Source of the DNA: Arbacia lixula
Lineage: Eukaryota; Echinodermata; Echinoidea; Arbacioida; Arbaciidae
Direction of reading: 5' to 3'
DNA length: 64,000 bases
NCBI GenBank assembly: GCA_963669155.1
Contig: OZ022584.1
Span: 7,771,362-7,835,361, forward strand
Position numbers and translations under genes: made by a program. The notes under the pieces are model-generated. The model did no database searches, was not told where the DNA came from, and saw only the letters and a program-made list of their open reading frames with translations. The stretch's first letter is position 1; the number at the start of each line of letters is the position of its first letter. This document shows, one piece after another, positions 4,855 through 29,600 of this stretch.

Positions 4855-5210
4855 ATTTTTTTTTTTTTTTTTTGGGGGGGGGGGGGGGGGACATCCGGCC
4901 CGTGCCCCCCCTTTTGAAACCAAAGTGAGGACCTTTTTTTTTCTTCTCTTTTCTTTTGTAGTCATCACGCCTCCGATGAATAAATGAGGACCTTTTTTTT
5001 TTTTTTTTTTTTAGTCATCTCGCCTCCGGGGAAGAAGTGAGGACATTTTTTTTCCTTTAATCTTCACGCCTCCGCGGAAGAAGTGAGGACCTTTTTTTCT
5101 TTCTCACGGGATTTCCCCCGACCAAAAATATGTTTCGAAATGTGCCCCCCCCTTCCCCCCCCCCCCCCCCCCCCCCCCCTTTCCCCCAAATCCTGGATCC
5201 GTCCCTGCAG
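4855..5210. repeat. Degenerate tandem repeat with poly(T) and poly(C), likely transposon end
   Basis: Units of about 45-60 bp, each containing GAGGACC, a T-run and a CACGCCTCCG-like segment, recur at roughly 4925, 4986, 5036 and 5081. A long C-run and the phrase CCAAATCCTGGATCC close the block. It looks like the end of a dispersed element, but the class cannot be told from one copy. Confidence 0.45.
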
Positions 5211-5483: not shown

Positions 5484-8400
5484 GTGCATGTATTTTGTAT
5501 AGTGCCCTTGATCGTAACAAAATAACCGAAAATATCCTTATTCGTGGAGCTCCATGCCTCATGCCATAATAATCAACGCGCGGTCAACGAACCATGTTAT
5601 GGCTTACAACCACACCTAATAAATAGACCACATAATAATAGTTCTATACGGAAAGGCCCTACTTTCAAAACAGGAAAAACTCCCCTTTAGCGTGCATTGC
5701 GCAATGTCAGAAACCGAAACAAAATACCTATTGCATGCCTCGCACGCACTACAAAACCACATCAATGCATGTCTGGAAATTTCTACACTTATCTGGAAAA
5801 CCCCGCCCGCTATTCGCTGATTGGTCACTGAACCTAAAAAGAACCGCGTGTATGTGTGATGCAAGAATCCCCCGTCCATTCATGCCCATTTATAGCGCAT
5901 GACGTATTTAATCTGCTACGTAGTCTACACGGTACAGACCATATTTATTACGTGTATTGCTTAAGTCGCGATGATAACGTTTGCGTTGTACATATGCAAT
6001 GTCCCTGTTTATGATTACAATCTTTCCGTCCTTTCGTAATGTGAAATGACGTTCAAATAAGGTAAAACAGTTCTTCTTTTCCCCTTTCAAATATTTTTTT
6101 GCCCAGAAGGAGAGAAACGAGAGAGCTTACCCGGGGAAGGGGTCAGGAAAATCAATCCGGTTACATGTACGACATTACATCATAAGTAAGTCATGGTGAA
6201 TCATGGCATGATTGATAATGACTGCGACATCTCATTTGCATTGTTGTCGCTCTTGGTCATAACTGTTAACTTGAATTCAGCATTATACAGTGGCCTAATA
6301 ATTGTTTCTAAAAATAGATATGCCCGACGCCCCTTTTTTTTGGAGATTACTTTGAAAATTGTAAGCATAACGAAAGTAGAAGGAAGTTGAATTAGAGAGG
6401 GAAAAGGAGAGGGGAGAGGGGTAGGGGGTAGGGAAGGAGTAGATAAGGGGAAGGGGAAGGGGATGGGTGGAGCGGTAAGGCGAGATATAGCAGAGATAAA
6501 AGGAGAAAGACCATACATAATACACACGCAACGTACACACGCACATTCCCACACACATAACCATACATACATCACACCCAAAATGTTCATACATACAAAA
6601 ACACATTGTACAATTTCTTGTGTTTTCTTCCTCTTTTTTCATAACAATATATTTCCTGATTAACAAGAATATTAACATCATCTTCATTAGCCATTTAGAA
6701 TCGTCATATTAGTCTTCTTCCGAAATTCTCGATAATGTTTTATAAAAACACGAAATGTAGATCCACCTAGTGTGACCCATGAGTCCTCAACAGGTTTGTC
6801 GCTCCCTCGAGACAATCAAAACACAGAGCTGATGTAAACACGGTAAGGGAGCCTCCATTTATAAGTTACATTCTAGTTTCCACTGGAAATACACGTATAT
6901 GTGAAGAATACGATGCAATATCAACATGCGCCATAGTTCTTGATTTTACTATATTCTTTTCCATTAAACAATAATGAAAATGTACATAGCCAATATGGCT
7001 TGGTATGATATATCAAAGTGATATTGGAATGATAAAGTATTTACCAGCATGAGATTGATTATGAGGTTTGAGGACGCTGAGATATTTGTAAAATATACAA
7101 ATTTACCTCAGCGCATAATCTAGATCCAAATCAATATCATACACAATCGTATTTACGTGATACATTTCTGCATAATTTAGACACATTACGCCTTGCTATT
7201 CCAGTCTGCGAGTAATACGCAGTAAATAAACATAACCCCACAAAAACACGACGAAATAAGAACATGAAGAACATTGACAATTCAGACACTGTCTTGTTTT
7301 AGAATGTAAATCGCCACTATCAAGCCAGCTAATTGTGGCGATATATACTCGAAATTATTTGGCACTAACCTCATAATAAAATTGCACTTTTCCACTGTAC
7401 AAGTCAAACCTTTGTATAAATTATATGCGCTCATCATTTCATTGAATACAATAATGTGTACATCCGTGTTTGTTTGTTTATTTAAATGTACTGGAATAAA
7501 AAACATAATGTCCAGATAGACGATGTGATATACAAGTCTAAAATGCCTGACATATCATAAATGCTAATCTTGACAATTTAATGCTTCCAATCAATAATAC
7601 ACGTTACAATTCATTGACAACGATATGTATGGAAGTGTAGCAATTTCACATTTTTCATCAGACTTAACTAAAGTATATTTCAACCATTTGATAGTGCTTT
7701 CACATGTATTTTTTTCATGTATCTTTTTGAACAGCCAATCAAGTTTTTGCTTACAAACTGCTCACGAAGGGCTGCGTTTGTCTTGGGTCAAAAAACTTTT
7801 GTTCGACCAATCATTTGATTTTAGGGCGTGAACACAAATTACGTTCTTGTGGAAGACATTTTTTAAAACTTCTTCTAGATATCTCGTGGAGTCAACTTCG
7901 ATATTGCACGTTTTATAGAAGTAAGTCATTTACCTCGTGGTTTTTGTATCAACCACCATTAGAGTTATAGCTGGAGTTGTAACTGGATTTATACCTGATG
8001 ATATACATCACATTTGCGGACATATCTGTGGATTAATATATCGCAATTTGTGTACACACACAAAAAAAACTTGTTTTACATTTTCGTGGATAAAACAAGG
8101 CCACAAGCTTTATGTTATTGCAGTCACCTTCTCCGGGATCTGTACAATGACACTTGGACTTCACTTCCGCGATGACAAAAGCAAGATATGTTATAATGAT
8201 ACAAGTAGAATACAAAATACAAAATACACGAGTATGAAGAGGGACTATACGTGCAATATAACATAGACAGCACGAAATTGACATGATAACCAGATCTGTT
8301 GCAATAGTTTATCACCGAAATTAGTCATTTCGGTATTTTGATCTAGTCTAACATTGATCACAGTCTAACAAAGTCTCTATTTAGCACAAAGTTTTACAAT

Positions 8401-8821
8401 GAGACTCGATCTCTCTATTCACGTTCTAACGTAACGAAGGAACTTGAAATGTGACTTTGATTTCGCAAACAAGATATGACATTTTCCCATGATTAAAATG
8501 TGAACATAATCAATTATGAAGACGAAAGAATGATGGGATACAATGAACGCGTTTTGAGTGTTAATAAATACAGTACTTGAGAGTGAATTGTGTCCAAGAT
8601 AACATGCAAGGTGATAAGCGTTACCAATACACTCGGTATGGATTTGCAGCCTCCAGTCGACGACAAATGTGATATAACATGTCCACAATTGCTTCAGGAT
8701 GGGTTAAGGGTACCCTCCCACAAATTGAATTTCGTTTGATAATGGAGAATTTGTCACTTCTTTATATCCATTTTTCAATATAATGGTAATGATGGTTGAG
8801 TGACAAGTAACAAGTTCTATA

Positions 8822-8982
8822 ATTGTCAAGACAATTGGCTCTCAACAAACTCAGTCCGGTGAGAGGTTTAGCGGTCCGATATTGTCTATAGGGCTAGTGT
8901 CCGGCACTCCCAATTACAGTCCCCGAGGTGATCACCGCTGCTTGCTCTACCCGCATTGTTTAGAACCAATTGTCTTGACAAT
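8822..8982. mobile_element. 161-bp inverted-repeat element (copy 1 of 2)
   Basis: The ends are ATTGTCAAGACAATTGG and its inverse CCAATTGTCTTGACAAT. The interior contains CGGTGATCACC- and GGGAGTGCC-like segments that recur in inverse orientation at about 53233-53392, so this is a small dispersed MITE-like family. No coding capacity. Confidence 0.6.
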
Positions 8983-9102
8983 AATGCTCAAATAACGTCA
9001 CACGTCACACGCCATGTCAATCGCGGACTGGGAGTGCTACATGGGAAACATTTCTCATGTGAACGTACAGTACCATCTTAGAATAAATAACTACTCTGGG
9101 CA

Positions 9103-12100
9103 TCAATGACGAACCAACTTAGGGGGCGGTGCGGGGGTGCTGCCCTTCGCGGCCTGGGCGTGGCAGGTAGTAGAAGGCGATGGGGACTGGGCATCGAACC
9201 GTCCCATGATGGATCGGTCGTCGTATTGGGGAGGGGGGTCGACCGGGGAGGGGTTTGCCGTCGGAGCAGCGGTATCGACAGCAGCATCTACATCGCCATC
9301 TATGTGGTCGTAACCATACGCAGTTCGATCACGGACAACATCGCTCGGGAGAGCGTAGCCGGCATCGTCCCATGAGTTATTGACCTGCTAGAGAGAGAGA
9401 GAGAGAGAGAGAGAGAAGGAATATTACTATCACAGAAAATAGACATGTTATCAGTTTTCACGTTTGATCATGATTTGAAAATTATCGCTGTATCATCTTG
9501 CCCATTCATTCTAATTATTATTGAGAAAAAGCCCCTTCAAATTCTATATAGGATTTAATTATATTCTATTCCGCCTTGGACGAAGGAAGGGGGGGGTTCA
9601 GAGGTGGAGTGCCCCCCTATTGGGAGGCTCCCTCCCTCGTACTAGCCCGTGTGTTGGGCTCTGTATTCACCCTCTCAACGGCTGCTCTTACATGTAACCC
9701 AAGCAGGATAAAGGCGCACTCACCTCGTCGAAGCTGCGAGCCCGGGCGTGGCGCTTGTTGTCCATGCAGGCCGCAGGGGAGTGCTGAAACATACCGGGAT
9801 GGGCTCGATGGTTAGGGCGCTGCTCTTGGTATCTGGTGATCTGTACATAAGAAAAAGAAACATGGTTTAGACTCCCAGAGTAAGTTACTAAGCAGTTATA
9901 TCTAATAGACACTCACAATTAAATACATTTCTACGCTATTCATTCAAGGCAAAATAGCGAAAATAATTATCAGGAATGCCTTCATAGCTATCGCGGTACT
10001 TAGAGACTAATTTGTGATAGAAAATGAGATTAGTTATCATTAATCTAATACAAACTAAGATGGATACCGATTTCGCCATATTTTCCAGTAGCATGTGGTT
10101 ATTAAATATGAAACTAAATGAAGTGTTAATTAAGAAACGCCTTTGGCAGATCTAAAAACTCTCACCTGAGCCTTTAGGGAACTAGCGAAGTCTTCAGCTT
10201 TCTTGAGTTGTTTCCTGAGATCGTTATTCTCCGTCTTGGTTCGCTCCTTGTCTCTTTTCTCTTGCTTGAAATCATCCAAGCAAATTGAAATCTGTCGGAT
10301 CAAAAATAAAGGAAAAATAAGACGTTTTTAGATAATATTTTGGTAATTGACTCAGGCTGTCATTTATACAGAGCATTGCATGATCGCAGTTGTCAAGTAC
10401 CCCCGCCCTCCTCCATACACAAACATAGAAACACACATCCTCCCCCATACATATTAACAAACACACATCCTCCCCCATACATATTAACAAACACGCACCC
10501 CCCCCCCCCCCCCCACCCACCCCGGTAGAAGGGGAGGCTGATATGAGCAAGGGAATCTAGTCTAGCTATTTACCTGCTGTCTGTAGAGATCAGCCTGTTC
10601 ATCCATCTCCTTCTTACACATCTCCAGTGTCATTTCCAGATGGTCAACTTTCTCCTTCAGATCCACGACTCGCTTGCTCATATGATATAAGTCCCTGTCC
10701 TTCTCTACCTCCCTTCGGCCCTTTCCATCCTCTCCCCTCGCAACTCCGGGTCCGGCGCCCTCCCTGAGCGCTCCTTCGAGCCTCCTGTTCGCCTCTTGCC
10801 TCTTCTTCTCAGACTGCTTCAGGGTCAGCTGTAGCTCCTGGTTCTCTCGCTGCGCGCGCTCCAGCGCGGACTTGCGCTCAGATGCGCGTACACGCGCGTC
10901 TGTCCAGCGCAGCTCCAGGTCTTCATTACGCTTGACCTGCTCCAGGAGTTTTCCGTCCAATAGCCGGACCTGCTCCTGGAGCTCTGCGATCTGCTCCTGG
11001 TTGTTATGATGGCGAGCGGTGAGGTCAATAACCACGACCTCGCGCTCCTTATCGTACTTCTGCCAGCGAGAGTTCATCTTACTGATCTCCCTGATCTGGC
11101 GGCTCGCGTTCTGTTTCTCCTGGCGGAGCTGCGCGAGCTGCTTGCGGAGGATCTGAAGCTGGGCTTCCATGGGGATGAACTCCACGTCTCCTGGGCTGCA
11201 CGGGCTGTCGATCTGTGATCAATTAAATTCAATTTTGTTTTCATGTTACATATTATTTAAAGGAAATATATTGTACTGGGAAGACACAAAAGCCTTCAAA
11301 AGGTGACCGTGAGCAATCTTCTTACCAATGGTCTTGAATTCATGTATTATCCATTTAAAAAAACTTGCTGAAAGTTATTTGCCCTCAAAAATCCACATTT
11401 GGATTAATTAGTGATTAAATCACAAATCATGAAAATGTTCGGCCCGAACAATTGGGGGATTTGTCATTTAATCACTTATTACTCCTAATGTGGATCATTC
11501 GAGGGCAAATAACTTTCAGCAAGTTTCTAAAATGGACAATACGTGAATATTAGACCATTGGTAAGAACATTGCTAACGATCATTTTTTGAAGGTTTTTTT
11601 TTGTCTTCCTAGTAGCCCTTTAAACAAAAAATCATAAGCAATATATTCACTTCATGTACTCGTTTAAGCTCCCAATATTGATTGTTTCACCTCCAAATTA
11701 ACGCATACATAAAATCAATACATGTATACATCTTCATGTACCATGGTACTGAATGAGACGCATGAAATGTGGAAATATTTCACAACCTCATATTTTCATC
11801 AAAGTATCTTTTGCATCCTAAGTTCCTGTCAAAAATTAATTCCACTTGAAATTACATGATCGAGACGCAATGATGGTTCCTCACTGACCGGATAGACGGA
11901 GATATTGTATATTATCTCGAGGGGCCGGTTTCAGTAATAATTTACCGAGCAATATCCGAAAGCGATTTAACGGACAAATCTTCAAATTGAAAGCAGTTGT
12001 TAAAAAGACACAATGTCTTTGATATGTTAGCAAAATGTAAATATTTTCAGCTCAACATCTTAAAATGAATAAAGGCTGTATTCAAAATAAATCACACGGA

Positions 12101-12411
12101 TCGGCTTAAATTCCGTACCCGCAATCTACTTGGGACTTCATTGATGCACGAGCTATTTTCTGCGAATGCTATAGGAGGCAACAGAATGCATATTTTCCTT
12201 ATAATCGACAGTTTACCTGTTTTTCTGGAGAGTTATTATAGGCGACGGGAAGGTGGACGTCTCCTCCGAACATCGGTGACATCGGGGTCGAAGATGAGGA
12301 CGCTGGAGATTCGGGTGGAGTTGGGCAATGCTGATACACGGACTGCGGCCGCCGGCAAGTGCACACAGCTTCATCCATGGGACCACTCTGCGCAGCATTT
12401 TGACATTCCAT
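9103..12411 (-). CDS. TNIP/ABIN-like UBAN-domain coiled-coil protein
   Basis: Five coding exons on the minus strand: 12411-12217, 11212-10574, 10291-10166, 9840-9724, 9387-9103. All joins are phase 0 with GT-AG borders, giving 453 residues. The start ATG at 12411 is the first Met after an in-frame TGA. Residues 1-65 are Ser/Pro-rich. Residues 66-278 are a charged coiled coil with the motif RWQKYDKERE at about 114-123, matching the W-x-x-Y-[DN] motif of TNIP2 and CEP55. Residues 279-320 (LDDFKQEKRDKER) match the UBAN helix that in ABIN, NEMO and optineurin binds linear or K63 ubiquitin. The tail holds a PPxY motif (PPPQY, about 410-414), a potential WW-domain ligand. No C-terminal zinc finger, unlike TNIP2, NEMO or CEP55. 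By family, it is probably a cytosolic ubiquitin-binding adaptor limiting NF-kappaB signalling. CEP55-like identity is the main alternative (length close to human CEP55), but the promoter kappaB sites favour TNIP. Confidence 0.72.
9391..9415. repeat. (GA)n microsatellite serving as polypyrimidine tract
   Basis: On the minus strand this is a CT run ending in the acceptor TAG directly before the last exon of the TNIP-like gene (9387-9103). The microsatellite therefore occupies the position of the polypyrimidine tract. Confidence 0.75.
11257..11624. mobile_element. Palindromic MITE-like element in intron 1 of the TNIP-like gene
   Basis: Two arms of about 160 bp are imperfect reverse complements. 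Landmarks are GGAAGACA, CTTACCAATGGTCT and CTTGCTGAAAGTTATTTGCC on one side, with their inverses on the other, around a short centre near 11440-11450 (CGGCCCGAACAATTGGG). The outer ends contain TTTAAAGG and CCTTTAAA. No open frame. It looks like a foldback element inserted in the intron. Confidence 0.65.
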
Positions 12412-12532
12412 GTTCAGATTGTAGTCTTTTAACGAAGGAAATGGAAGAAGAAAACTGTCAGATCACTTCGTAGGGTGTATTTCTTGTGCTGCAAGTGTTA
12501 GTCAAATGGTTATCTGCGTGCGAAGTCCTGAT

Positions 12533-12538
12533 TTTATA
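12533..12538 (-). promoter_or_regulatory. TATA box of the TNIP-like gene
   Basis: TATAAA on the minus strand, 122 bp before the start codon. This would place transcription start near 12505 and leave a short 5' UTR. It lies between the kappaB sites and the coding sequence. Confidence 0.55.
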
Positions 12539-12580
12539 CTCGCGTACCCACGCTTTCTCCCACGCATAATAACTACGGCC

Positions 12581-12590
12581 GGGAAATCCC
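12581..12590. promoter_or_regulatory. kappaB site 1 (GGGAAATCCC)
   Basis: Matches the Rel/NF-kappaB consensus GGGRNWYYCC. It lies about 43 bp upstream of the TATA box of the minus-strand TNIP-like gene. Confidence 0.6.
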
Positions 12591-12617
12591 AAATACGTGC
12601 GCTATTCTTAGCTCACC

Positions 12618-12628
12618 GGGGAATCCCC
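12618..12628. promoter_or_regulatory. kappaB site 2 (GGGGAATCCCC)
   Basis: A perfect palindromic kappaB motif 28 bp further upstream than the first site. Two near-ideal sites within 48 bp and just upstream of a TATA box are unlikely by chance and suggest Rel-dependent induction. Confidence 0.6.
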
Positions 12629-13085
12629 TTTTCCACTGCGCGCTTGACTTGTACATGGTCACATTTATAATCACCTTGAGGGTAATAGGGAGCTTTCGTT
12701 ATAGCCCCGCGGACGGAAACAAGATCAGTGAGCAATCTGTTCTCGCCGTCCGTCCTCGGCAATTCACACGCAGTTTCGCTAAAAGACAGAGAACGCGAAC
12801 GACGGTGCGTGTGGCATCATCTCGCACACCCCCTACCGAGCTTGTCTACAAAACAGCCGGTCGCACGTGCGATTTGCATTACATCATCTGTACGGGCGCT
12901 GATTGGCTGCTGTCCTCTACTCGTCGAGGACGAGAAATCTCAGAATTCACGTTCTCGATTCCCCGCGCGGATTCCAGAGCGGGCGGTGGCGCATGCGCAG
13001 ATCGATCTTGGTGTCGGATTACCGTACTGGAGCCCGTCCGTCCTCGAAACGAAAGCTCGCTAATAACATGAGTAGAATGTAAGTT

Positions 13086-13087
<2 letters not shown>

Positions 13088-13150
<63 letters not shown>
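13088..13150. repeat. (CA)n microsatellite
   Basis: About 31 CA units, almost uninterrupted. It lies upstream of the TNIP-like promoter region. Confidence 0.95.
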
Positions 13151-13153
<3 letters not shown>

Positions 13154-15450
13154 GTGCACACATGCACAATCAAGAACCTTCGACCTTCATTTACAATAGT
13201 CTTGCTTTGTAGACTTTTTTCTTCTAGAATGCTCTATAAACAATGTACAATGGGAATTTTGCAGCGTCGACAATGCGAACCATTTGTTTGCTTCCTTATG
13301 CTAAACACGCTATGCCGGTTACGCATTGTTAATCACGCACATTGCGATCACACAATAATGGATTGCGCAATGACACATGCATGGGGTTTTTAGATTCGAT
13401 CATTGCTCAAAAAATTAATGAAATGTATCTCGCCTGGAAAAATTGTTGTTGTTTTACTAAATGAAGAAAATATTGCACTTTTGATTGGTGCAGGAAGTGT
13501 TTTACCCTCGTTATTTGGACCCGATCGTACTCAATGACCAACTGGCACATAAGATAAATTCCCACAATAAAACAAGTGCTTTGAAACCGTGACCCTATAG
13601 AAGCATTGTGTACAAAGGTATTGAGACTTCCTTCACTTAAGATTGAGAGAGTTAAATCCCACTGCCGTTGATGAAAATCAACGCACGGAAGCGCATCGTT
13701 GCAATATACTGCGTCCTCATTGTGGATCGTCCTTGCCCGGCGAGCCCAGTAAAGACCCGGATGTGCTTCTGTTCGAATATTAAGTTATTAAAGAGAAAGT
13801 CCTCCCTGAAGCTCAGTTGGTTTCAATAAAAGCAAAACATGATGGAAACAAATTAGCGAAGCTTTGACAAAAATCAGTCAAAAGAGCACAGACTTAGGAA
13901 TTGTTACATCTTAGTTTTGTGACGTTACTTGCGAGAGACTCTTCTATGAGTTTGTTTTTTTTTTCAAAAGAAAATGCAAATTTTCTCCAAAGGATATATT
14001 CTATTTTAACCTGTGCATTGTATATATCATTCAAAACATGTTTGTACACACATACCGCCATTGATTTTTTTTAGTCCATTATGAACAAAAGAAAAGTGGG
14101 AATTTAATTGATACAGTGCATAGCATAATGTGATATTATCATTTCGCACGTGATGTCACAAAATTAAAACTTACAAAGACTATAGCATTTGACGAATTTT
14201 TGTCAAACCTTCACTAAGTTGTTGCTTTCATTTCGTTGCTGTAATTAAAACCAATTTAACATCAGATTTGGTCTTCCCTTTAAGCTTTGCGGGGAAAAGG
14301 GGGGGGGGGCATAATCGAACGTTAGACATATTCGAAACTTCGAAAGGTCATTGATCAGGAAGGGGACATGTATGTATGACTTGTGATAATTCATCATTTA
14401 TTAATCAGCAAACCTTTATTTGTTAATGTGTAATTTACTGTTTGACTATGCATTCAAGCACGTGACTCATGAATTTTGTATCAGCATGTTGACCCAGCAG
14501 TTGCAAACACAGAAATTACGCAAACAAAATATATAGGTAGTACGTTTCCTGTCCCGTGACTATATTCATATTTAAACCTCTCTTTACTATTGGTATGGAG
14601 ATGTGAAAAAAGGCCAATAGAGTTGTCAAGGTCTGGTACTAAGAGGGTTTAGTCCCTAACGTGGACAATCGCTTGTCATGATGCGGACTTCATCTCCAGT
14701 ACTCTTTCCCGTTGCTGTTGTTTGTGCAAATAGAGTGAGAACAGCAGAAATATATGGTGTTCAGCTATCAATGATAAAACAGATGATAGAGCTTTTAATA
14801 AGTATAACATCTAGCTAAAATGAAAAAAAGTGTACCCAAAACATTGCAAGATCATTTCAGGTTGCATTTATCAACTTTGATTTGTTTTTGTAAATAGTTT
14901 TTATTTTCCAAGATGCGAGCGTCGTTTTTCATTGTCATATGCTTCATATATCATTCTGGCGAGTTGTATGATACCGTTCTTGCATTGATAGATCCATGTG
15001 TTTGTATGACATCTAATCAATCCTTCATCTTAATGTGAGTAAACATGGTAAAGATCGATCAGAGAGTGGGTTCATTATCATCGTAGATATATGACGAAGT
15101 TGTGTGATTAGAAAGGGACAACGACAGAGTTACGAAGTGATTACCATGATTGGTATGGTATGGTGTGGTGTGGTAAAAAGGTTTATGTTGATACTAGCTG
15201 AAGCATACTTATGGGTACGCCTGATCATATAGGTAGATTTGTGGCACATTGCCCCTCAGTCATCATTGGTTAATTCTACAAGTCATTGGTTCTTTGTTTC
15301 TTATACGAGTTATTTTTCATTATTTGCCCGTTACACTATTGGGTTAGTTTCTTTCCTTGTGGTGTAGCTTGAAACACGTTTCCCCGCGGCATAATCCTGA
15401 CAAAACAATACAAATTATGATCTATATTTTGCACCACAGAGTATTATACG
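13151..15450. other. Intergenic, no gene seen
   Basis: Ordinary AT-rich sequence with a G-run at 14300-14309 and a short GGTATGG/GTGTGG stretch near 15150-15175. No exon or RNA gene could be supported. Confidence 0.5.
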
Positions 15451-15452
15451 TA

Positions 15453-16080
15453 CAGTTGAGGCCAAAAGTTTACATACACCCATGGAATTTAGTGAAATTT
15501 GCTCGCGTGCCGAACATGGTAAAATCTACTATATCTTCAGAAATACAAATACTTCCATGTATCAAATTAAAGAGCGTATCAAGTATTTCACATGATTGGA
15601 ATGCCGTTGGGATTAAATTATATTTCAGTTGGAATTTTGTTCGAAGAAAAAAAAGTAATATTCGTGCCAAATGTATTCTAGTGTTTGTTATTATATTTTC
15701 AAACATCGTTTTATAGAAATATATATATGTCAAATCTATGATATATATTACATTTTCTATCATTATGTCACCACTGAACATAGAAGTGTAATCTGCAATG
15801 CTTGTATTGAGAAGTAACTAGCACAAATATGAAATTTTTTGTCAAGTTTTAATTTTTAATTTGTCTAAAATATGAAGATTTTCTGGGGAAAACGACACCT
15901 AAATATTTGCCAGCTCCTAATAACAAATAAATGTGATGAAGGGGCGTGACATACTCATTCGTTTGATATTAAATTCGTTATGATAACTCAAATATAAGAT
16001 ACAGGAAATTCTGTGACGTTTGGCAAGTGTCAACTTTTCCTTGAATTTCCTGGGTGTATGTAAACTTCCGGCCTCAACTG
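15453..16080. mobile_element. Tc1/mariner-type non-autonomous element
   Basis: A 628-bp element flanked by TA on both sides (15451-15452 and 16081-16082). The ends begin CAGTTGAGGCC and continue AAAAGTTTACATACACCC on the left; the inverted right end is the same with a GG for AA change. CAGTTGA and AGTTTACATACAC match the ends of Sleeping Beauty and related Tc1 elements. The interior has only short frames and no recognisable DDE transposase, so it must have been mobilised in trans. Confidence 0.85.
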
Positions 16081-16195
16081 TATAAACTGTTATGACGTTT
16101 ACTACTGTTGTACTTGTTGTACACTATTGTTTCAATATTTAGCAATATTGTTGACGTTTGTGTCGCAATAACTCTCTCAGTCTCTCTGGCTTCAC

Positions 16196-16268
16196 ATGTG
16201 CCAATGCCTTAATGGGTAAACGCCGCGTTAAAATAAAATCGAAAATGTTGAAAATTACGCTACATTTC
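16196..16268. repeat. Inverted partner of repeat at 18903-18975
   Basis: About 73 bp (CCAATGCCTTAATGGGTAAA and following) recurs in inverse orientation at 18903-18975, inside the loop of the palindromic element at 18581-19275. It is probably a fragment of another copy. Confidence 0.65.
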
Positions 16269-16955
16269 GTAATCAAACATTTCAACGGTGAAAAACATGT
16301 ACAGTTTATAAACAATACTAAATGGTGAAAATACATTTTAATCACGAAATAATGATGTGCGATTGCAACATTCATGCTATATATTTCAACTCCCACGCTG
16401 TTCGTTACCCTTATGGGATCAAAGGTCCCAGTGGTTTTGTAAACTATGTACTGTTTATACACTGTCTCATGCCTACATGAATTAATACGTATACAATTGG
16501 AGCCCCCCCCCCCCCCTCTATCTCTCTCACGTGTCTTTTCTCTGAGTCATAAACATTACATGTCGTTTATTCATCGCGATATATTCCCTACGCCCCCCCC
16601 CCCCCTTTGATACATCAGATATGTACACTACACACAACCATGTCAAACGTATATTAAACTTAACTGTGTCACTTAATTCTTATCGGTATCGATACGATAA
16701 ATCTAAAATAATGATCACGAACATTTTGTAAATGACTATGATCACACTGTTCTTTTGCAGCACATGTATATTGCAAAATCAGATAACACATTTATCAACA
16801 TAACATTGCTATATTGCTTTCAGTGTTGATCTCAATTTTGATCGAGACGAAATCCATTCCATTTCGGGCAATCGAAGATTCGGAGTCACGGACCTTCGAA
16901 ACATTAGGCAGTTACTCTTGAAGAGTGACGAGATGGGAATGGTTTTGGGGAGATG

Positions 16956-17000
16956 GGGGGGGGGGGGGGGGGGTGGGGGGGGGGGGTGGGGGGGGTGGTG
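16956..17000. repeat. Poly(G) tract
   Basis: Long G-runs interrupted by single T bases and followed by GGTGGTGG. The tract can form G-quadruplexes. Other long G/C runs nearby are at 16502-16516 and 16592-16606. Confidence 0.9.
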
Positions 17001-17576
17001 GTGGAGGTTCCAAGTGTATATTCATTTAAGATATTTAACTATGCTTGGAGCCGAGCAGAGCTGGATATAACTATATAACTTTACAACGCTATAGAAGATG
17101 ATACATTATTAAAGTACTCTCTACGTTTGCCCAAAATAAATTGATGGTTCCAGAGGAATCGCAGGGAGACTGCTTCGCGATCATCACTTACACAAAAAAT
17201 AATTCGAATGCCATGGCTGTAGTGTACACATTAAACATCATAATGTTAGCTGTCTAATAAACCTGTACAACCATCCGTACACCAAACAGGCGCCTTCAAT
17301 AAGTTGTGCTTTTCCCTCCTCACTATCTTGTCCACAACTCGGGGGGTTTATTATGTCCGCAAAAGCTCCGGGACGATCACCTTCTCGCTAATGGATCATT
17401 CTTTATGACAGTGGTGTACGAACGCTTTACGAGGCGCTATTAAGCCATCTCAGCTAGAATATAGGCCAAATGCAAATATACCCTTTGGGGAGTGCGATTC
17501 TTAATTAAACAAGAAGCGCGGAGTTTGAACAAAGCGTTGATTATTATCATCAGGAATTATAAATACTTGTACGGAT

Positions 17577-17885
17577 GATGAGGGGGATGGGTGAAGAGAG
17601 GTAAAGAGGAAGGCGGGAAGAGGAGAATGGAGGAGGAGGATGAGAAGGAGGAGGAGTGAGAGATGAGGGTAAAGAAGTGGGGGTAGGAAAGGCGATGAGG
17701 TGAGAAAGATGGACGGAATTAGAAAGAGACAGGGAGAAGGAGAGGGAGCGAGGGAGAGGAAGAGTGAGTGAGAGACAGTGATAGAGAGAGAGGCAGGGAG
17801 GGGGAAGGGGTATAATACGATGGTGAGAGCGAAGGCGGAAGGAAGGCGGTTTTAGGATCGGTGTGTGGGGGGGGGGGGGGGGGGG
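17577..17885. repeat. Purine-rich (GA) low-complexity tract ending in poly(G)
   Basis: An asymmetric GAGG/GAGA-rich strand about 300 bp long, ending in TGTGTG and then poly(G). Its open frames are low-complexity Pro/Ser/Leu strings and are not genes. Confidence 0.85.
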
Positions 17886-18025
17886 TATTGGCATGATTAC
17901 TGGTAGTAATTTGCGTATGTCCATTGCCATGATAGATAATCATTGGATTGAATATACTAGCTTTTTATCAAATAACCAATAAATCTTCATGAAGAAATAT
18001 AACTATTATTTACATACACACACAT

Positions 18026-18027
<2 letters not shown>

Positions 18028-18066
<39 letters not shown>
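18028..18066. repeat. (TG)n microsatellite
   Basis: A run of about 18 TG units after a short ACACAC stretch. Confidence 0.95.
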
Positions 18067-18068
<2 letters not shown>

Positions 18069-18580
18069 GTTAAGGGGAGGGGGATTTGTATTATCATAGT
18101 TCACCATCATAGTTTGCTCAATTTGCTCTATTTCATTTCCTTATCACATCATGTGTACGTGCGCCCGTCGTTAAACGCGTGTTTGTTCAATGACAAGCTG
18201 AAAACTCTGTACGTGAACAGAGGAAAACTACCCGGATAAATCTCAAGTTAGGAGAACAGTGTCGATGTATTTTCAGAGAAAGGAACTGCGAGAAGGGCAA
18301 TACCCTTCGGCACCTACGGAAAGAAGTTAAATTGTCACTTTTCGTTGAGAAATCTGCATCCTTGTTCCGTCATCCAGCCATTTGTTATTGTTTTGGCTCC
18401 CACGATCAGCTGTGTCTGTTCCTGGTTGAGACAGACACTAACATGACTACGACGTCCGATTTGTATGCTTGTTATTGGCATGACATTTGGGGGAAATCGT
18501 CATTTATTGCATTTATTGCAGATTGCTACGTGGGATATCCCCCCCCCCCCCCCCAAATAAAAGACACAAAAACACACACA

Positions 18581-19275
18581 TGTGTATCCCAAAGTGAAAA
18601 TCTCATTAAACATTTAAAAAATTATTACAAAGACGATATTTTATGAAATGTCACGTAACTTGACTTTATGATATGTGAATCTCAGCTTGATTTGAGTTGT
18701 GACATTTATGATATTGTTTTTTAAAAGTGTCAAAAGTTCTTTTTTAACATTTAGTACCAATAAAGGTTCTCCCGCTCAAGTAACAGTTTTGAACTTAAAA
18801 TCATTGCCTGAGATTCAAATTTTACAAGGTGTGGGTCCTCACGCGGCCCTTTAGCTTTTTCAATTTACGTTTTTCAGCGTTGAAATGTTCGCTTTATACA
18901 AAATGTAGCGTAATTGTCAACATTTGCGATTTGATTTTAACGCGGCATTTACCCATTAAGGCATTGGCACATTTCCATATCAATAGACATGCCTGAACTC
19001 GTTATACACGTGTACCTGTATTCACAAGTAATGCGCACAAAGCCCATAGAACCCACAACAGAAGGCAAAAGAAGGTCAAAAGACCTGTTCACATTTTTAA
19101 CAAAATAATATCATAAAAGTGCAACTCCGATCAAGCTGAGATTCACATATCATAAAGTCAAGGGGGTGTCAATGTTTTTTTTAACCAAGTTACGTGACAT
19201 TTCACAAAATATCGTCTTTGTAAAATCTTTTAAATGTTTAATGAGATTTTCCCTTTGGATTCACAGGTGTGATGC
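18581..19275. mobile_element. Large palindromic (foldback) element
   Basis: The arms at about 18581-18745 and 19090-19275 are reverse complements over most of their length. Landmarks are AAATCTCATTAAACATTTAAA, TGTCACGTAACTTG and GATATGTGAATCTCAGCTTGA. The right arm has about 25 extra bases between two landmarks. The roughly 340-bp centre holds the repeat shared with 16196-16268. No coding frame. Confidence 0.7.
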
Positions 19276-20326
19276 ACAATGCTCTAAATGAACTATTTGA
19301 TACACAGACCTTTTTTGGTCCAAATTTGTCCAAAAATGAAAATCTGAAAATGAAAAGTGAATTCATGTTGTCTTTCTTTCACAGAAAGTGCTAAAAAGGC
19401 CAACGCATCTGCTTGTTCGGGAATGGAAGGTGGGTCGGTAAAAGTTGGCGTTATGACCGTCGCGCTGTATCCGCTTAAAGATGGGCGATAATGATATCAA
19501 TTTGGGGTGGTATTCCAGAAGTTATCCTAAGTTTTCTCTTAAATCCTCTCTTACGCACATTCTGGAATACCAATCCTCCTAACTTTATGATTTACATAAA
19601 TTTGCATAAAGATAGGAGAAAACTTAAGAGAAATCTTAGGAGCGGAGTTAGGAGAAAAGTTAAGATCGTTCTGGAATACCACTTAGGAGAATCTTAGACG
19701 TAGAATAAGATTTCTTCTATAAGTTAGTATTTAAGATCGTTCTGTAAATATGTATATGTACATGCGATGAAGTATTGCGACCGTGGAGTTATTCATGCAT
19801 CATCTAGCTATTTATATGAAAGAGACCTTAAACAATTTAACGACATGTATATATATATATATTTCTATATATCATTTCCCAAGCTCACGTGTCAATTAAT
19901 CCCTGACTACATCAGTGTCCGTCATCACCCTCATCTGCCCGATACCCGATCGATAGTATCGAGATAGTATCAGACGACTCTTTCTCCCTACAGCTCCTTG
20001 CTAACGTTCGTCTAAGCCGAGCGATCTCTTTTACTCTGTCTCGGAGTCACCGGACATTCCATGATGATTTAACTCTGAAATGTCGGTCATCATTACTCAA
20101 ATAATCGAATCCTTTTTAAAAATAGGCTCAATTAACGAATGACCTGGTTTAGGTGAAAGCGAGAATCGCTTTTATCACTGCTGCTCTAAGCTCTTATCGC
20201 CGCTTCGCGGTTTTAGGGCTCTTCTGAAAAGAAAAAAAAACCCGCTAGCGTGTGACGAAGATGCACTGAGCAGGCACTGTCATCTTGCTCTTGTTATTTA
20301 CCTACCAGAGCGACTTGTCTTTCAAA
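19276..20326. other. Upstream region of the class C GPCR gene
   Basis: Contains an imperfect self-complementary segment at about 19505-19700 built on GGTATTCCAGAA/TTCTGGAATACC and CTTAGGAG-like words, probably another MITE-like hairpin, and then about 500 bp of more GC-balanced sequence before the start codon at 20327. No core promoter element stands out. Confidence 0.45.
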
Positions 20327-21436
20327 ATGGAAGTGCGCTGTTTTCTGTTTTGTGCCATTCTACCTCTCGTTTCTCCATTCATATACATGAAGCAAATGGA
20401 CAACGCATCGTGTTTGGAAGGTGGAGGATGCCCGTCCTTTTCGTCACCAGACGATGCCAATTTTTCACGGAGTTTGAGCGGGAGCGTCAACATTGTTTTC
20501 GTCGCGTCACCCGATGCTGGCTCCACGGAGGCATGCCAGGAGGCGATAACGGAGATAATCCTAATATTAGAATATGTCATGAAAGAGGTCCGTGAATTGT
20601 ACGGCTCCAGTTCCTACTCATGGATAGACTACACCATCATCTGCACGAGTTCGGGAAAGAACAATACTGACTCTTCGGTTCTGGGTCCTGACGATATTTT
20701 GCATCTCTTGCAAAATTCGGAAAATGCCGCCATAATTGTTGGCGCTTATTCTGACACAGTTTTGACTTCCTCCTTAATCTGGCTTGCGGGCAGCCTGAAT
20801 GTCCCTATCTTCTCTCTGAACCCATTGACCCCAGATCAGGCACCGACTTTTAGGATTGTCCCATCGACTGCAGAACTCATAGGCGCCGTCGTCGAAGTCA
20901 TTGACCATTTCGAATGGTCGTGGATTAGTTTACTGTCTACGGATAATGATATCAGCCGCGACGTTTTGAGTAAGATTGAGCTGGAGCTAGAGAGAAAACA
21001 GACAATTTGCATTGATGTCAAAATGTTTGTTGATTCCTCGCTTGATGCGGGCAACGAATCCGTTGAACGAAGGCGAATATTTGACAAGATTACCATGACA
21101 ACAGCGAGAGTGGTCGTAGTGTTTGTATTCGATGCAAAGGCGCACAAGATTTTGACTGAAATCATGGAAATGTTTCCAGGTAATGCAATTTAAGACGAAA
21201 CTACAAAAAGTCGTGTTTGTATTCTCTCGCACCTTTTCTCTGTTTTATTTATTAATATGTTTTATGTGATTTAAAATCACTGCTGAATGTGTCTGAAATT
21301 TTGAAATGCATTCAATGACTCTATCCTTTTTACAAACTAAAACGTAGTAGTAGTAGCAGTAGGTGAAGTAGTAGTAGAAGAAGTAGTAGCACTGCAGTAG
21401 TATTAGTAGTAGTAGTAGTAGTAGTCGTAGTACTGC

Positions 21437-21477
<41 letters not shown>

Positions 21478-23577
21478 GAGTAGTAGTAGTAATATTATTA
21501 TTTGTTCATTTTAAATCATTATAGACATGTTATAGGGGCTTGCACTCTTCCTTCATATTTTGGGGGGCTTCAAACTATTCCCACGTGTAGTCTAGTAGGT
21601 GAGGAGAATGCCCGTGCAACTCCCCCCCCCCCCCCCAAAAAAAAAAAAAAAAGAAAAAAAAAAAAAGAAAACAAAACAAACAAACAAAAACACGATTGAC
21701 GACTAAACTTTTTAAATCCGCAAGAGTATCATTTTTATCAAGTTAGATGTTCACACTTGATAAAAACGTCCCTGAAGATTTCTGGACCACTTAATTGTGG
21801 ACCCAGGTCAAAAAAGCTTGAGGTTTGTGAAAATAACATCCCCTGGTGAAGCCATATCTCCAGAAATACATCATTATATCTTATTAAATTTGGCTCACTA
21901 AAAGATTGTTCTTAAATCAAATGACTGGTAATGTTTTAAAGACATTGCAATTTATCTTCATCAATTATTGACATAAAAAATGCATAATATTAGATATGCT
22001 GTTGCCTTTGGTAGTTTCTGACACACACAAAAAACTCCTTTCACTTATTTTTTTACGAGCAAAGTTAGTACGAGATGATTTTGAATAGATATACTTTTTG
22101 GTCTTTCTGCTGATCGAAACATAATGTTAACTGGAAAGATACTATGCATCCTAACGTTTAAAACTCCATTTAAACACGATTGCAAGGTATGATTTAGCCC
22201 TTATATTGTATCTCATAACACTCGAATGTCTGAATGTCTAGGAGGATAGGTGGGCTGCCGTGCACCACCTGGAATGATATTGTTACATGATTATGAACAC
22301 CTCAAATATATCTCTTGAGAGAATTCAGGACTTACAAACAAGACAAAATATCCCGCGTAATCCTAATTAGCATATCCAAGAAGGCCGCTATCACAGCATG
22401 CCTAGCGTATATCACCATGGTCATAGTTCAGTCTGTTTTTAAGCCAACAGAATGCACATTTCTCAATAGTGTTTGATAAACCAATTTTTTACATGATGAG
22501 ATTTATGTTTTAGGGGTACTTGATAAGTGATTAGGGATTCGTACAAGTAGTTTCAGGTCAAGGTCACATTCAATCTCTGAGTATGATAATAAACAAGTGC
22601 TATTGTTTTTCCAATCCAGATCGCATCTGGATATCAGCCAGTCTGGGTAACATAGAGTCCCTCCCATCGCCTCCAACCACCATTGCGATCTCACCCACGG
22701 TCTACAACTTTCCTCCAAGCTTTGACGCCTTCCTCATCGACTGGTGCGTGCGTTGGGCCAACTGCTCCGATCTCGACCGCCAGCTGTGGGGTACCGTCGA
22801 GGTCGACTACGAATTCATCTGCGAGGCGGCCCAAACGAATGCGACGACTATGACTACGACGGCGAGGCACGCCCAACTGTTGGGGTTATACGTCGCGGTG
22901 CACGCGGCGACAAGGGACACGGTCTGCGAGCAGGCTGCGGTAAATGATTCGGGCGATGAACCGGGATGCACGTTCGCTTTCAAGGTCAACGAACTTCTGG
23001 CGCATGATTTGTTAAGTCACACGAACGACAGCCAAGACATCAACCAATTTGATTTTGATTTGCTCTCGTGGGGGTTCGATGTCAGAGCGACGCGTTGGAC
23101 CACCTCGCCTCAGGATGGGATGATGAAGTGGTCACGTGCCGATAGGACAGAAAATGAGGTCGGTAATGGTGAGGACGGGGATGGAGATGTCGAGATTGTT
23201 GATGACGTCGGACTGTATGGTCTATACAGGTCTAATCAGTTGGTGATTGACCCAAGTCGCGAGATATGGCCTGGTGAAGTAAGTGATATGGTATACAAAT
23301 GAGTAATGCTTGAAAACAAAATCAATAGAAAGTTCAAACAGCATGATTGAGGGCTACTTTCCTTTTCCCCGTGTTCCGTCTCTCTCTCTCTCCTCTCTCT
23401 TTCTGTCTCTCTCTCTCTCTTCTTCTCTCTCTCTTTCTTTCTCTCTCTCTTTCTCTCTCTTTCTCTTTCTATCTTTCTCTCTCTCTTTCTCTGTCTCTCT
23501 CTATGTTTCTCTTTCTATCTCTCTCACTCTCTCTATCCATCTTTCTCTCTCTCTCTTTCTCCCCCTCTCTCCCTTTA

Positions 23578-23621
<44 letters not shown>

Positions 23622-23634
23622 CCCCTCTCTCCCT

Positions 23635-23690
<56 letters not shown>

Positions 23691-26600
23691 AATGTTACAT
23701 ACATTGTTACTGATTCTTTCTCGCAGTTCCTGTTATACACTGTTTCTGATTCTTTCTCGCAGTTCCTGTTATATGTTAGTTCAATAATCTCACAGCGAGT
23801 GTCCGTGTACTCCTCATCCTGGTCATTACCCTGACCACTCTCCCTCCCTCCCTCACGCCTCCCGGATGTCATATCAAGAAATAAATATCCGCCGCGGTCT
23901 TACCAGACTGCTTGAAGAAACACGCGCTTTACGTCCAAGAGAGTGTCCAGTTTCATTTCCTCATCACCACTCGTGCGTGTGAAAGCACATATTGATCACC
24001 ATGGCATAGTAACCTTATCGTTGAGCTCTGCACATACGCATGCCAACTTAGCCTGAAGGTATAATGAAAAGAGAGATCTCACAATGTTTGAAATACTACA
24101 GTCATTATTGTTTAGAGATTTTCATTGGATTATTGCAGATCTTTTTGATATTCGGGCTTATCAGATTTTTTGGGTTATTCACCTTTATTAATTTGCCTTT
24201 ATGTACTTCATACAATTTCCATTATCATTCTTAACTAGTCCATCTATCAACATCCTGCTATTTACATTCACTATATAAGGAATATGAAAATCATGATCAT
24301 AATTGTCAATGCTAAATATGTTACTCGTTGCGAATAAATCGCTAGTGATAATCGTATGTCTCGCAATGTATAGTCAACAAGGGATCTAAGATCACGACAT
24401 TTCGTGCGCCGATGCAACACTTCGGCCAAAGGTTAATGAATTTTGCCAAAATTGGCCATAAAATATTGCTCCAAAATTTATAACTTTTCACAATAAAATC
24501 CAAATTCAGTAATCCAATTTCAACCAAACGTGAAACAATGGATCACTACATGGAGGTACACTGATGAAATTTTGCGTAAAATTCTTGAAAGGTCAAAGGT
24601 CAATGAACTTCACAAAACTTGGCTAAACCTGCCAACATGTTTTTATTCAAATGTCTTAATTGAATAATCCAAATTCAAACAAACCTGATGCAAAGGTGGA
24701 TATGCCCCCATTTAGATTTAGAAATTAATAGATTGGAAATCAAAGAAAAAAAGGTCAAAGGTGATTGAACATTGCCAAATTTGGCCAAATGTGGCAAAAC
24801 AAGTTGAAATTGAATGGTTTGATATCACGAAGTTAGTTAATGGTACACTGTCAAAAAAGTTTTCTATAAGAAGACAATCAATATCAATCAAATAAAGCTA
24901 ACAAAGAAGCGGGGACATTTTACTCAAGTTTTTTCCCCAAAAAAGATTTGCGTTACAAAAATGGCCATAAAAGGAAGTTTCCCCATTCCTGAAGGCTACT
25001 CGGACGTGGGAATACCTGACGTCTGAACAAAGCAGTTCACGAGTAAACAGTGTTTGTTGTGCTTTTCTCCTTTCGCGTGAATGACTCGTGGGTTAGTCAT
25101 TCCGTGTATTGTGCCCGTATGACCGTAAAATCTCCAATAAGACCGGTTTACTAAGATATTCAAATTTTATGCATACCAGTTTAACAAAGGTTGCCCCTGA
25201 CAACCGGAAAGCTTGCTCGAGGTTTGCCCGACCTAGCAACAACTAATGTATGCAAAGTGGAATCCAAGTACTCATACCATCGTTAGGTACAGGTTAATGG
25301 AATAACTCGTTACTAGGCCCCGAGGGAAGAGACATTCATGAATTTGACTACATTAGTAAACCGGTCAATTGCCTCGACTGTTACTGTGACTGACCTACAT
25401 AACTTTGCATAACGAGTTACTTTAAATTTTAAACACAACTTTCAAGCGCTATAGTCGCGTTTAATCTGAGGTGCATTTAATCACAGCTTAACCTTCACGT
25501 AAGACGGCCTAAAACACACAAACCGTCTGTGGCATGCTTGATGTGCGTGTTCTGTGTTTAGGTTTCAATGATAGTTAATTAATCTTAATTATTCCGCTCA
25601 ACAGCCAAAGTTTTCTGATCACTATTAGCTCATGAGATACACGTAGTTTACAGTACTGCATACCTCTTCTCCACCTCTCTTCCTTGTTTTTACAACAACT
25701 ATTTAGCGCGTCGTTGACAATCAATTATTATTATGCCGAAGCGTCGCGCTTTTGTCAGATGAGGTTTAATGGAGATGAGACATTCCTGTGGCGTGGAGAG
25801 GTATCCACGCCTACTCTTGTGTGGAAGGCAATAAAAAGAGGGAGACAAATTACGAGGGCTGATTAATGCAAGGGTAAGGTCGACCATGTACCGTGACCCT
25901 TTGAACACACAATAATCCATTTTCGTAATGTATTCACAGCTTTCCCTCTAACTGCCTGGTGACGCGTTATTTACATCCACCTGTATTTCGTGATTCAGTT
26001 TGAATAGATGGAACGCACTCTTAATATACATGTTGTTGCTATTCGGACAAACCTCGGACAAGCTTTTGGATTACCATTAGTAACGTATTGTTTGAACTAC
26101 GTGAATAAAATCTGCATATATAACGAAAATGGTAAATTCATTTTAAAGGTGATATTCATAGAAAATCCAAAAATATGAAGATATTCATTTACAGAAACCT
26201 TACAAGCCATACAATGAGCTTGGATGACATTCAAAGAATATATCACTTCCAAAAAAGCGAAATTAGGTTGAAAACAATCACCCTATTCTCGGGGACAAAT
26301 TTATCCTACTGTCATCCGAAACGGCCTTTAGGTCTGACGTAAGAAAAGGGAGGCGTTATTGTGCATCGCACACGCCAATCTGCAGCTTCTTTTCCGCCAG
26401 AAGCATCATGCATTGTTAATGAAACTGCGATGGCAGTTGCTAGGGATTGACAGGTGTGATACACAATGGTCATTGTGAAGCATCCCGGCTGTGACGTACA
26501 CACAAAGCCACTTTCCCTTGGGCGATTTCGTAGGTCAGGAGAGAGTCAAATTTGATTTTCAAAAAACACGAAAATGAACACTTTCATGACATGTTAGCTG

Positions 26601-29600
26601 CATAAATTGTTTTAATGACTCATTCAATTATAAAATAAAATATATTTATTTGATTTCATTTTCTATAAGTATCACCTTTAAACGGAACGCCACCATACCC
26701 TGTTTACAGTGACCATGGACCTTATTTTCACAAAGCATAGAGTATTTTGAATTTGTATTTAATGACCACACGCATAATCTTGACTCGTTTGAGATGTCGA
26801 CATGAATATTCCTAATGGAATAGTATGTACATAAAACGTAAGCGTGTGTTTTCATAGAGCTATCGTTCATACATATTTGCTTATTCATTACAGCTTTATA
26901 AATTTCAACAATTTGGCAGCATTTTCGTGAGCATAATATAGATCCCCGTGTCTTCCGTGCCCACCCACCCACTTTCTCTTCGTTTGCTGTTTCCAAATTA
27001 GCAGTGTTCGAGGACTGCGATAAAGCAACACATTGCAATTTAAATGTTCTTTGAATGTTTCCATGGTGAGAGTGTACTTATTAATACTATTCATTGGCCG
27101 GATTCGGACACTCTCGGGTTATTTCGGATCCATTCGGATCCATATACTCGGTGCGCTCATTTGTTCCTTCGAGTTATTCTCCGTATGACGGACAGAACAC
27201 ACTGCCCGAAACGTTGAGACTGATACTTTCTCTATTTTGAAAGAAACGTACAGTTAGTTGCAAAACTTACTATTACCTCTCCACACCTTTCTTCCCTCTC
27301 CTTCTTTTCTCTTTATAACTTCTTTGTGACTAGTTCACAACTCTTAATCGCCAACCACCCTCTTCTTCTACCTCCATTTCATCCCATTTATTTTCGGTTT
27401 AAAATACCGAAAACTAAAGCTAAAATGACCTTGTGTAAGTGTTATAAAATATGAAAAAAATCACCTCTCCTCTTTTACACTTTCATTTTTCTTTCTTCAC
27501 CCCATAAGTGGGTCAATTATCCGAAAGAATAGGCCTGTTAAACTATTTTGTAAATAATATTTATTAGTACATTACAATTTGTTTTACATTGTGACTCAAT
27601 ATTGAGTCCGTGTCACGGGATCGTGACAGGGTGGCGAGATCGTTTTAATCGTACTCGCGTTCGGCCTCGACCACAACACTATAACTGATATTATTGGTAT
27701 GTACTCTCTGCCCCCTCGTGCCCGAACCCAGGTTCCAGCGAGTCGCTGCACGGCTGAGTGCCCGTCCAATCATCTTCAGTTCCCGCTGCCTGGCTGGCGA
27801 CAATGCTGTTTCCTCTGTGTTCACTGCGAAGGCAATTTAACCTACGACGCGAATGGTAAACATGCCTCCTCTACTCTGCCCTACTCTGACAAAAGGAAGC
27901 AAGTAACAAATTACTCAAATCTGGGTTATAAGGATTCTTAGATTGTACCCAGCATTCCTTACATACGGCCAAAATGTGGACAAGAAATATTCATCTTGCT
28001 GTGAGATATTCAGTCTAACATGATGTTTTTTTGCACTGATGCCAATGCAAGTGAAAGACACACTTTGCTCATTTAAAAGAAAGTATCTTTTGTTAGTTGC
28101 TTCCTTTTTGTCATAGAAGGGCAGTACTATTCTCCTCTTTTCTACATACCCTTCGTCTTCTTTTATTCTTCCTCCTTTACCCATGATTCCTTTCTTTTTC
28201 GTCCATCTCCCTATCCGTCATTTTCTCATTCTTTTTTGTCTGCATTTTCCCATATTTCCTGGTTTTCTCCTTCATGCTTCCCTCCTTGTTCATCAAATTG
28301 GTGTTTCCACTGTCTATCATAATCTTCCTTTCTTGTCGCTCTTTTCTCTTCTCCTTGCTATGATCAATGGTTAATTTCCACTAACACATGGGCATCAAAC
28401 AAGCTAAAGATATAGGCCTATAACGCTTATGCAAGGGCTCATTAAATGGCCACGCTTAATACACGGATGCACGAAACGATGATTATGAAAGTACATTTTC
28501 TTCTTTAAAAAAAAAAATGCTCTGCCATTCCCCCTTGCCATGGTCATTATCAGTTCAGATTCTAATAAACCGGTCTAATAATAGACCACTACAAAACGGT
28601 TGGATGTACAACTTCCACTTCACTCCTTTCGGTGCAAGTGAATGTTTCCTCACAAAATGGAATTGACAAAAAGACGTCTTACGTACATTTAATAAAGAGG
28701 CGAAAGTACAACTAAAGCCCTGTATAGTTTTCAATTTCAACACACATGGTATTGAAGTGTTTAGCTGCCTTCCGTTAATCATATCTATTTAGACCGCAGG
28801 AAGTGAAAGTAACGTGCATGTCAAATAGTTATTTAGTTCGCTCAAAAAAAAAATCCCAACATGGTGGAAACGATTGAAGCCAGGAAATTATGTCATTATC
28901 CTCTCCTGATATTATGGTATCGAACGTTACATCACATCCATTTTTTGTTGCTGTGTGTGGGGTGAGAGGGGGGGGGGGCGTGTCACGTGATAAGATTTCG
29001 TTGATTCCTTGGTGTTGCTTTTGTGCATGAGTTTTGATAACGAACATCAAAAAGACAAGAATAGAGACGCCAAGTGGATCAGCCACACTGCAGTTATATG
29101 CGCATGGAAGAGATTTGAAGGACCCATCGGAATCACAGACCCGGTAAAATAACAAAGGGGTGGTGATAAACATTCATAATGATTGGCCAACGATTGTGAC
29201 CACTTGACTATGCTTGGGGACGGTCTGATAGGAAAACACAAGGAAAGCATTGTTGATGCATTGTGGGAGCAGTCTGGGAACTGTTATTAGAGTGTAATTT
29301 GGGCTCTGAATTATAAAGAGTTGTGATAGATCTGAATTGATCGCAAGTCTTACCCCTTATCTCTACGCGTACAGAGTCACGTTTTATTCAAATTGCAACT
29401 CTAGTTGCGATTGAGGACTATGTAGTTCGCTGTCACTGTAAGCTGTCTCCTCTCTCGTTTATAGGGCTGCTGTCATGCGAGGCGTGCCCCGAACGGACGT
29501 GGTTCGACATTACATCTGGAGCCTGCGAGCCCAGACACCTGGACTTCCTCCGCTGGGACTCCATCCCGGGTCTGGTGTGCGTCGCCATTAGCTTATTCAG

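Follow-up and report, generated by a model that had tools for sequence, protein, structure and literature searches.

A paired kappaB motif at the start of an ABIN/TNIP-like gene of Arbacia lixula: a candidate Rel-driven feedback promoter

A stretch of 64,000 nucleotides from the sea urchin Arbacia lixula (GenBank assembly GCA_963669155.1, contig OZ022584.1, positions 7,771,362 to 7,835,361; hereafter the window, with positions counted from its first letter) contains a minus-strand gene whose product carries a UBAN-type helix similar to that of human TNIP1 (ABIN-1), together with two closely spaced kappaB motifs at the start of this gene. The region is probably the promoter of an invertebrate ABIN/TNIP-like gene, driven by Rel and serving negative feedback on the NF-kappaB pathway. 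Both motifs, and a minus-strand TATAAA at 12533-12538, had been pointed out in an earlier note on this DNA, which also placed a gene with a UBAN-type helix beyond the TATA box; all three motifs were found exactly where the note had put them, and the gene was borne out by a coherent exon model and by the match of its helix to TNIP1.

The kappaB sites and the gene

The first kappaB site, GGGAAATCCC (minus strand: GGGATTTCCC), occupies positions 12581-12590, and the second, GGGGAATCCCC (minus strand: GGGGATTCCCC), positions 12618-12628. Counted on the minus strand from the upstream edge of the TATA sequence at 12533-12538, they begin 43 bp and 80 bp upstream, respectively, with a start-to-start spacing of 37 bp. 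GGGGAATCCCC is the H-2 kappaB sequence, which has served as a positive control in work on NF-kappaB dimers (p50, RELA), and it forms part of the 19-mer crystallized with p50 (PDB 1SVC). The same 11 bp are also part of the probe bound by Nematostella NF-kappaB in an electrophoretic mobility shift assay, a probe taken from upstream of the Nematostella IkappaB gene, and this is the strongest hint at hand that GGGGAATCCCC would be recognized by a Rel protein from outside the vertebrates. The other site, GGGAAATCCC, is consistent with the kappaB consensus, and a search of two papers for its sequence gave no match. Thus, the description of both sites as near-ideal is borne out for GGGGAATCCCC by identity with experimentally bound sites, and for GGGAAATCCC by consensus fit.

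The gene model comprises five coding exons on the minus strand, which join in frame to give 452 codons and a TGA stop; all four introns are in phase 0 and have GT-AG ends, the exon borders having been hand-picked on the sequence. Exon 1 (12217-12411, 65 codons) begins with the ATG at 12411-12409 and is followed by the donor GTAAAC. Exon 2 (10574-11212) is helical and encodes, by weak Pfam matches to EABR and CC2-LZ, an EABR-like stretch and the start of the UBAN-type helix; exon 3 (10166-10291) contains the UBAN core LDDFKQEKRDKER, recognized by comparison with PDB and Pfam. Exon 4 (9724-9840) is followed by exon 5 (9103-9384), which encodes a proline-rich tail and ends with the stop codon at 9105-9103.

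Two candidate transcription starts

The TATA box of the first candidate promoter, TATAAAAT (12531-12538, minus strand), matches TATAWAWR at 7 of 8 positions and lies 31 bp from an initiator with a predicted +1 A at 12507; the initiator fits BBCABW at five of six positions (ACCATT) and YYANWYY at six of seven (CCATTTG). With this start the leader would be 96 nt long, with no upstream ATG, and GGGAAATCCC and GGGGAATCCCC would fall at -74 to -83 and at -111 to -121, that is, in the proximal promoter.

A second TATA box is found on the same strand at 12662-12669, beyond both kappaB sites. It reads TATAAATG, matches TATAWAWR at all 8 positions and is 32 bp from an initiator with a predicted +1 A at 12637, which fits BBCABW perfectly (CGCAGT, 6/6) and YYANWYY at four of seven positions (GCAGTGG). 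The claim that the kappaB sites stand upstream of the TATA box is therefore true for the box at 12533-12538, but it had overlooked the one at 12669-12662.

This rival promoter is the source of the alternative that survives best, although it is judged unlikely: transcription of the ABIN-like gene would be directed by the upstream TATA box and begin near 12637, and the kappaB sites would lie in its 5′ leader, where Rel may act, or a Rel-binding repressor, or where they may be idle. Several observations speak for it and hence against the arrangement proposed here. With +1 at 12637, both sites are inside the leader, GGGGAATCCCC at +9 to +19 and GGGAAATCCC at +47 to +56; moreover, combinations of a TATA box matching at least 7/8 positions with an initiator matching at least 5/6, at 28-34 bp, occur 152 times in the 128 kb of strand (1.19 per kb), and the TATA box of the first promoter alone is not significant, while pairs as good as that of the second promoter occur only 7 times in the same 128 kb (0.05 per kb). 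On the other side, a start at 12637 would give a 226-nt leader that contains one upstream open reading frame (ORF), 21 codons long and beginning at 12567, against the clean 96-nt leader of the first promoter, and its fit to YYANWYY is the worse of the two. In summary, TATA quality and BBCABW favour the second promoter, whereas YYANWYY, the structure of the leader and the placement of the kappaB sites favour the first. The promoter geometry is thus uncertain, because the TATA/initiator pair that is better by TATAWAWR and BBCABW sits beyond both sites; these would belong to the proximal promoter if transcription starts near 12507, and to the leader if it starts near 12637.

Chance occurrence of the site pair

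According to another explanation, the motifs arose by chance, or are read by another factor that recognizes similar GC-flanked palindromes, with the gene itself outside the control of Rel. HIVEP/Schnurri-type zinc-finger proteins, for example, read GC-flanked palindromes similar to kappaB. Counts over the whole window give this explanation some room. The pattern GGGRNWYYCC has 13 strand-wise matches against 4.48 expected, a number reached by one of 100 shuffles; the narrower GGRAAWYYCC has 5 against 2.04 expected, which 8 of 100 shuffles reached, a count that is unexceptional window-wide. Four loci in the 64 kb fit GGGWWWYCCC, namely the pair at 12581 and 12618 and two similar palindromes at 5108 and 18532. 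The latter two, 5108-5117 and 18532-18541, adjoin no gene start that was recognized.

These counts make the individual kappaB sites unremarkable; what stands out is the clustering and the quality of the pair, not the number of sites. When merged, the GGGRNWYYCC matches form 7 distinct loci, among which the sites at 12581 and 12618 are the sole pair within 200 bp; the looser GGGRNNYYCC gives 12 distinct loci in the window. In sequence simulated under four models, 2 Mb for each, the fraction of 120-bp blocks holding at least two GGGRNWYYCC loci was 0, 2.4e-4, 0 and 0, and for GGGRNNYYCC it was 6e-5, 6e-4, 6e-5 and 0. By a binomial estimate, two loci fall within a given 200 bp with a probability of 5.8e-5 for 4 loci, 2.0e-4 for 7 and 6.3e-4 for the 12 loci of GGGRNNYYCC. 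All these figures are post hoc, since the interval was picked after the sites had been seen, and they serve as guides; as such, they put the chance of so closely spaced a pair at roughly 1e-4 per 120-200 bp. The explanation by chance or by another factor appears quite improbable, since it has to account for a pair 37 bp apart at the start of an ABIN-like gene, and since the match between motif and pathway requires no search over factors.

Identity of the encoded protein

When a 69-residue query covering the UBAN helix was compared with PDB, four distinct TNIP1 sequences took the top places (E-values from 1.9e-5 to 7.8e-5), followed at a distance by apolipoprotein A-I (0.13), an Xrcc4 fusion (0.3) and TNIP2 (0.31), with seven matches in all to E=1. 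A 97-residue query gave TNIP1 again in places 1 to 4 (3.5e-5 to 5.8e-5) and TNIP2 in the seventh (0.32); NEMO, optineurin and CEP55 were not among the 12 matches to E=10, and the same query reversed had no match to E=10. The alignments begin at residue 37 of 99 in the 7eao chain and at residue 47 of 109 in the 7eal chain, the earlier part being unmatched. Patients in whom ubiquitin binding is defective carry mutations at three NEMO residues, D311, E315 and R319; the positions with equal spacing read D, E and R in TNIP1 and D285, E289 and K293 in the Arbacia protein.

Some results weigh against the assignment. The equivalent of R319 is a lysine (K293), and all five Pfam matches of the whole protein remain under their curated cut-offs, including the NEMO domain CC2-LZ (E 4.6e-5, 24.2 bits against a cut-off of 35.3) and the CEP55 domain EABR (E 5.4e-5, 23.1 bits against 25). 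Among the NCBIfam models that match the whole protein are TIGR02169, a prokaryotic SMC model (E 2.2e-5), and PspA (1.8e-4). Six NCBIfam families appear to E=1, all generic coiled-coil or ATPase models far under their bit cut-offs, and these coiled-coil matches are read as probable matches of composition. Since SMC and PspA come to similar values, an E-value of about 1e-5 does not prove identity in a charged, helical protein, and this applies to the TNIP1 match as well; that match therefore rests on rank, on the reversed control and on the aligned core, rather than on E-value alone. In addition, AHD1, which is required for A20 binding (AHD4 is the one common to all ABINs), was not recovered as similarity in the PDB searches made with the UBAN queries and with the 152 residues encoded from the beginning of exon 2 onward, the last of which gave no match to E=10.

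The TNIP/ABIN-like identity claimed earlier is accordingly well supported for the UBAN helix, with TNIP1 as top match and an empty reversed control, and more weakly for the remainder of the protein, where AHD1 was not recovered by similarity. It is very unlikely that the gene belongs to another NEMO-related branch (NEMO, optineurin, CEP55) or encodes some other coiled-coil protein, with no inhibitor role implied: the two best Pfam matches, both under cut-off, are indeed the NEMO CC2-LZ and the CEP55 EABR, CEP55 is regarded as a ubiquitin receptor of the NEMO family, and generic models match down to E 2.2e-5, but TNIP1 and TNIP2 alone represent the group among the PDB matches, with TNIP1 far ahead (the absence of CEP55 weighs little), the reversed query has no match to E=10, and the last 132 residues hold, among Cys and His, two Cys only, so that by eye no NEMO-type zinc finger is present. 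A tblastn search of the whole protein against a viral contig collection returned four pattern stretches and no relative.

The proposed feedback loop

Taken together, the motifs, the gene model and the similarity of the UBAN helix make a Rel-ABIN feedback loop plausible. In the proposed mechanism, immune signalling would activate a Rel/NF-kappaB dimer, which would bind the two palindromic kappaB sites; bound Rel would then raise transcription from the start predicted at about 12507. The encoded protein would be expected to bind Met1- or Lys63-linked ubiquitin chains via its UBAN helix and, once bound to ubiquitin, to dampen the pathway that activates Rel, thus closing a negative feedback loop. 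Rel binding, immune induction, ubiquitin binding and the inhibitory direction of the effect are inferred, as is the start site.

This type of circuit is already known in mammals. ABIN-1 and ABIN-3, but not ABIN-2, rise on stimuli that activate NF-kappaB, and NF-kappaB is reported to regulate human TNIP1 positively through sites in its promoter (review citing Gurevich et al. 2012); the earlier note's premise that some ABIN/TNIP genes are NF-kappaB targets in vertebrates agrees with the reported induction of ABIN-1 and ABIN-3 and with the TNIP1 promoter sites. Knock-out mice have cast doubt on how much ABIN-1 matters as a feedback inhibitor. It is conceivable, and here a tentative suggestion, that a direct Rel-to-ABIN loop is hard-wired in an invertebrate by a short TATA promoter bearing two almost perfect Rel palindromes; Rel control of an ABIN gene would in that case be older than the vertebrates, and the loop at human TNIP1 may derive from it. 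If Rel binds here, an arm that restrains NF-kappaB by binding ubiquitin chains would be under Rel control outside vertebrates, and the age of the feedback could be addressed by comparing one short promoter across invertebrates. At present, the loop is a clear hypothesis that is cheap to test, and not a surprise.

Surrounding sequence

Upstream of the kappaB sites lies a CpG-rich stretch (12690-13070), in which tiling with overlapping 200-bp tiles gives an observed/expected CpG ratio of about 1.2-1.45 against 0.66 for the window; over 12101-13200 the ratio in such tiles ranges from 0.77 to 1.45. This CpG richness speaks for a promoter, but less than it might, because the next three tiles, to 13500, have ratios of 0.69, 1.25 and 1.18, the last two values (13201-13500) at lower GC. 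The elevated ratio is thus not restricted to the promoter, though GC content peaks there. The window-wide ratio of 0.66 and the small number of exons speak against a genome of vertebrate type.

An imperfect 18-nt inverted repeat, 89% complementary, with arms at 12683-12700 and 13048-13065, bounds a CpG-rich stretch of 383 bp directly upstream of the kappaB sites; it ranks first among the 11 inverted pairs listed for 12400-13250. Exact copies of GTCCGTCCTCG are found within it at 12748 and 13036, and the arm core GAGCTTTCGTT recurs elsewhere in the window as one-mismatch copies only, at 26857 and 34656. The stretch 12683-13065 may represent a small inverted-repeat transposon lying within the promoter. 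A further element at 8819-8985, just past the stop codon of the ABIN-like gene, has a 30-nt inverted repeat, 90% complementary, with 107 nt between the arms, and it too has the look of a small inverted-repeat transposon. A divergent gene on the plus strand, which would share the CpG-rich region, was considered by eye, from an ATG followed by GTAAGT near 13068, and was not established.

As for neighbouring genes, a Pfam scan of 11 of the 55 ORFs, besides those of the gene itself, gave two matches, both to parts of a class C receptor, which begins about 7 kb away: an ORF at 20270-21193 on the plus strand (ANF_receptor, E 9.2e-20) and another at 29341-31188, also on the plus strand (7tm_3, E 5.2e-38). 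The two may well form one class C receptor gene, spanning 20270-31188. RNA genes, considered as a possible reason for the character of the upstream region, were sought in 8000-20500, and none reached the gathering threshold.

Comparison with known systems

In a literature search with most subscription papers outside its scope, no paper joining TNIP1, sea urchin and NF-kappaB was found, and the promoter of an invertebrate ABIN gene was not among the matches listed. Components of the pathway have been reported in several invertebrates. An A20-like sequence has been described in sea urchin and in amphioxus, where A20 is regulated by lipopolysaccharide; in sea urchin larvae tnfaip3 is regulated upon exposure to Vibrio, and in Aplysia TNIP1 is among the NF-kappaB dampeners of a co-expression module. 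Against the proposed loop, one paper reports that its authors found no A20 in lower invertebrates, Drosophila among them, and an A20-dependent mechanism is therefore not necessarily present in Arbacia lixula.

In amphioxus, NF-kappaB inhibition mediated by A20/ABIN is the subject of a cited report (Yuan et al. 2014 PNAS), which by its title offers a likeness, namely ABIN-linked inhibition outside vertebrates, and for this reason weakens the novelty that such a finding in Arbacia would imply. The Nematostella IkappaB gene is similar in being an inhibitor gene with an upstream site that contains GGGGAATCCCC and is bound in vitro by cnidarian NF-kappaB; unlike in Arbacia, the inhibitor there is IkappaB and not a UBAN protein. 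The H-2 kappaB site of major histocompatibility complex class I (PDB 1SVC) has the identical 11 bp GGGGAATCCCC, in a different gene and lineage. Human TNIP1/ABIN-1 differs in length, with 636 residues against the 452 of the Arbacia model, and in its AHD1, which was not recovered by similarity in the latter; it is alike in its UBAN-type helix, the best match of the Arbacia protein among solved structures, and in the NF-kappaB promoter sites and induction reported for the human gene.
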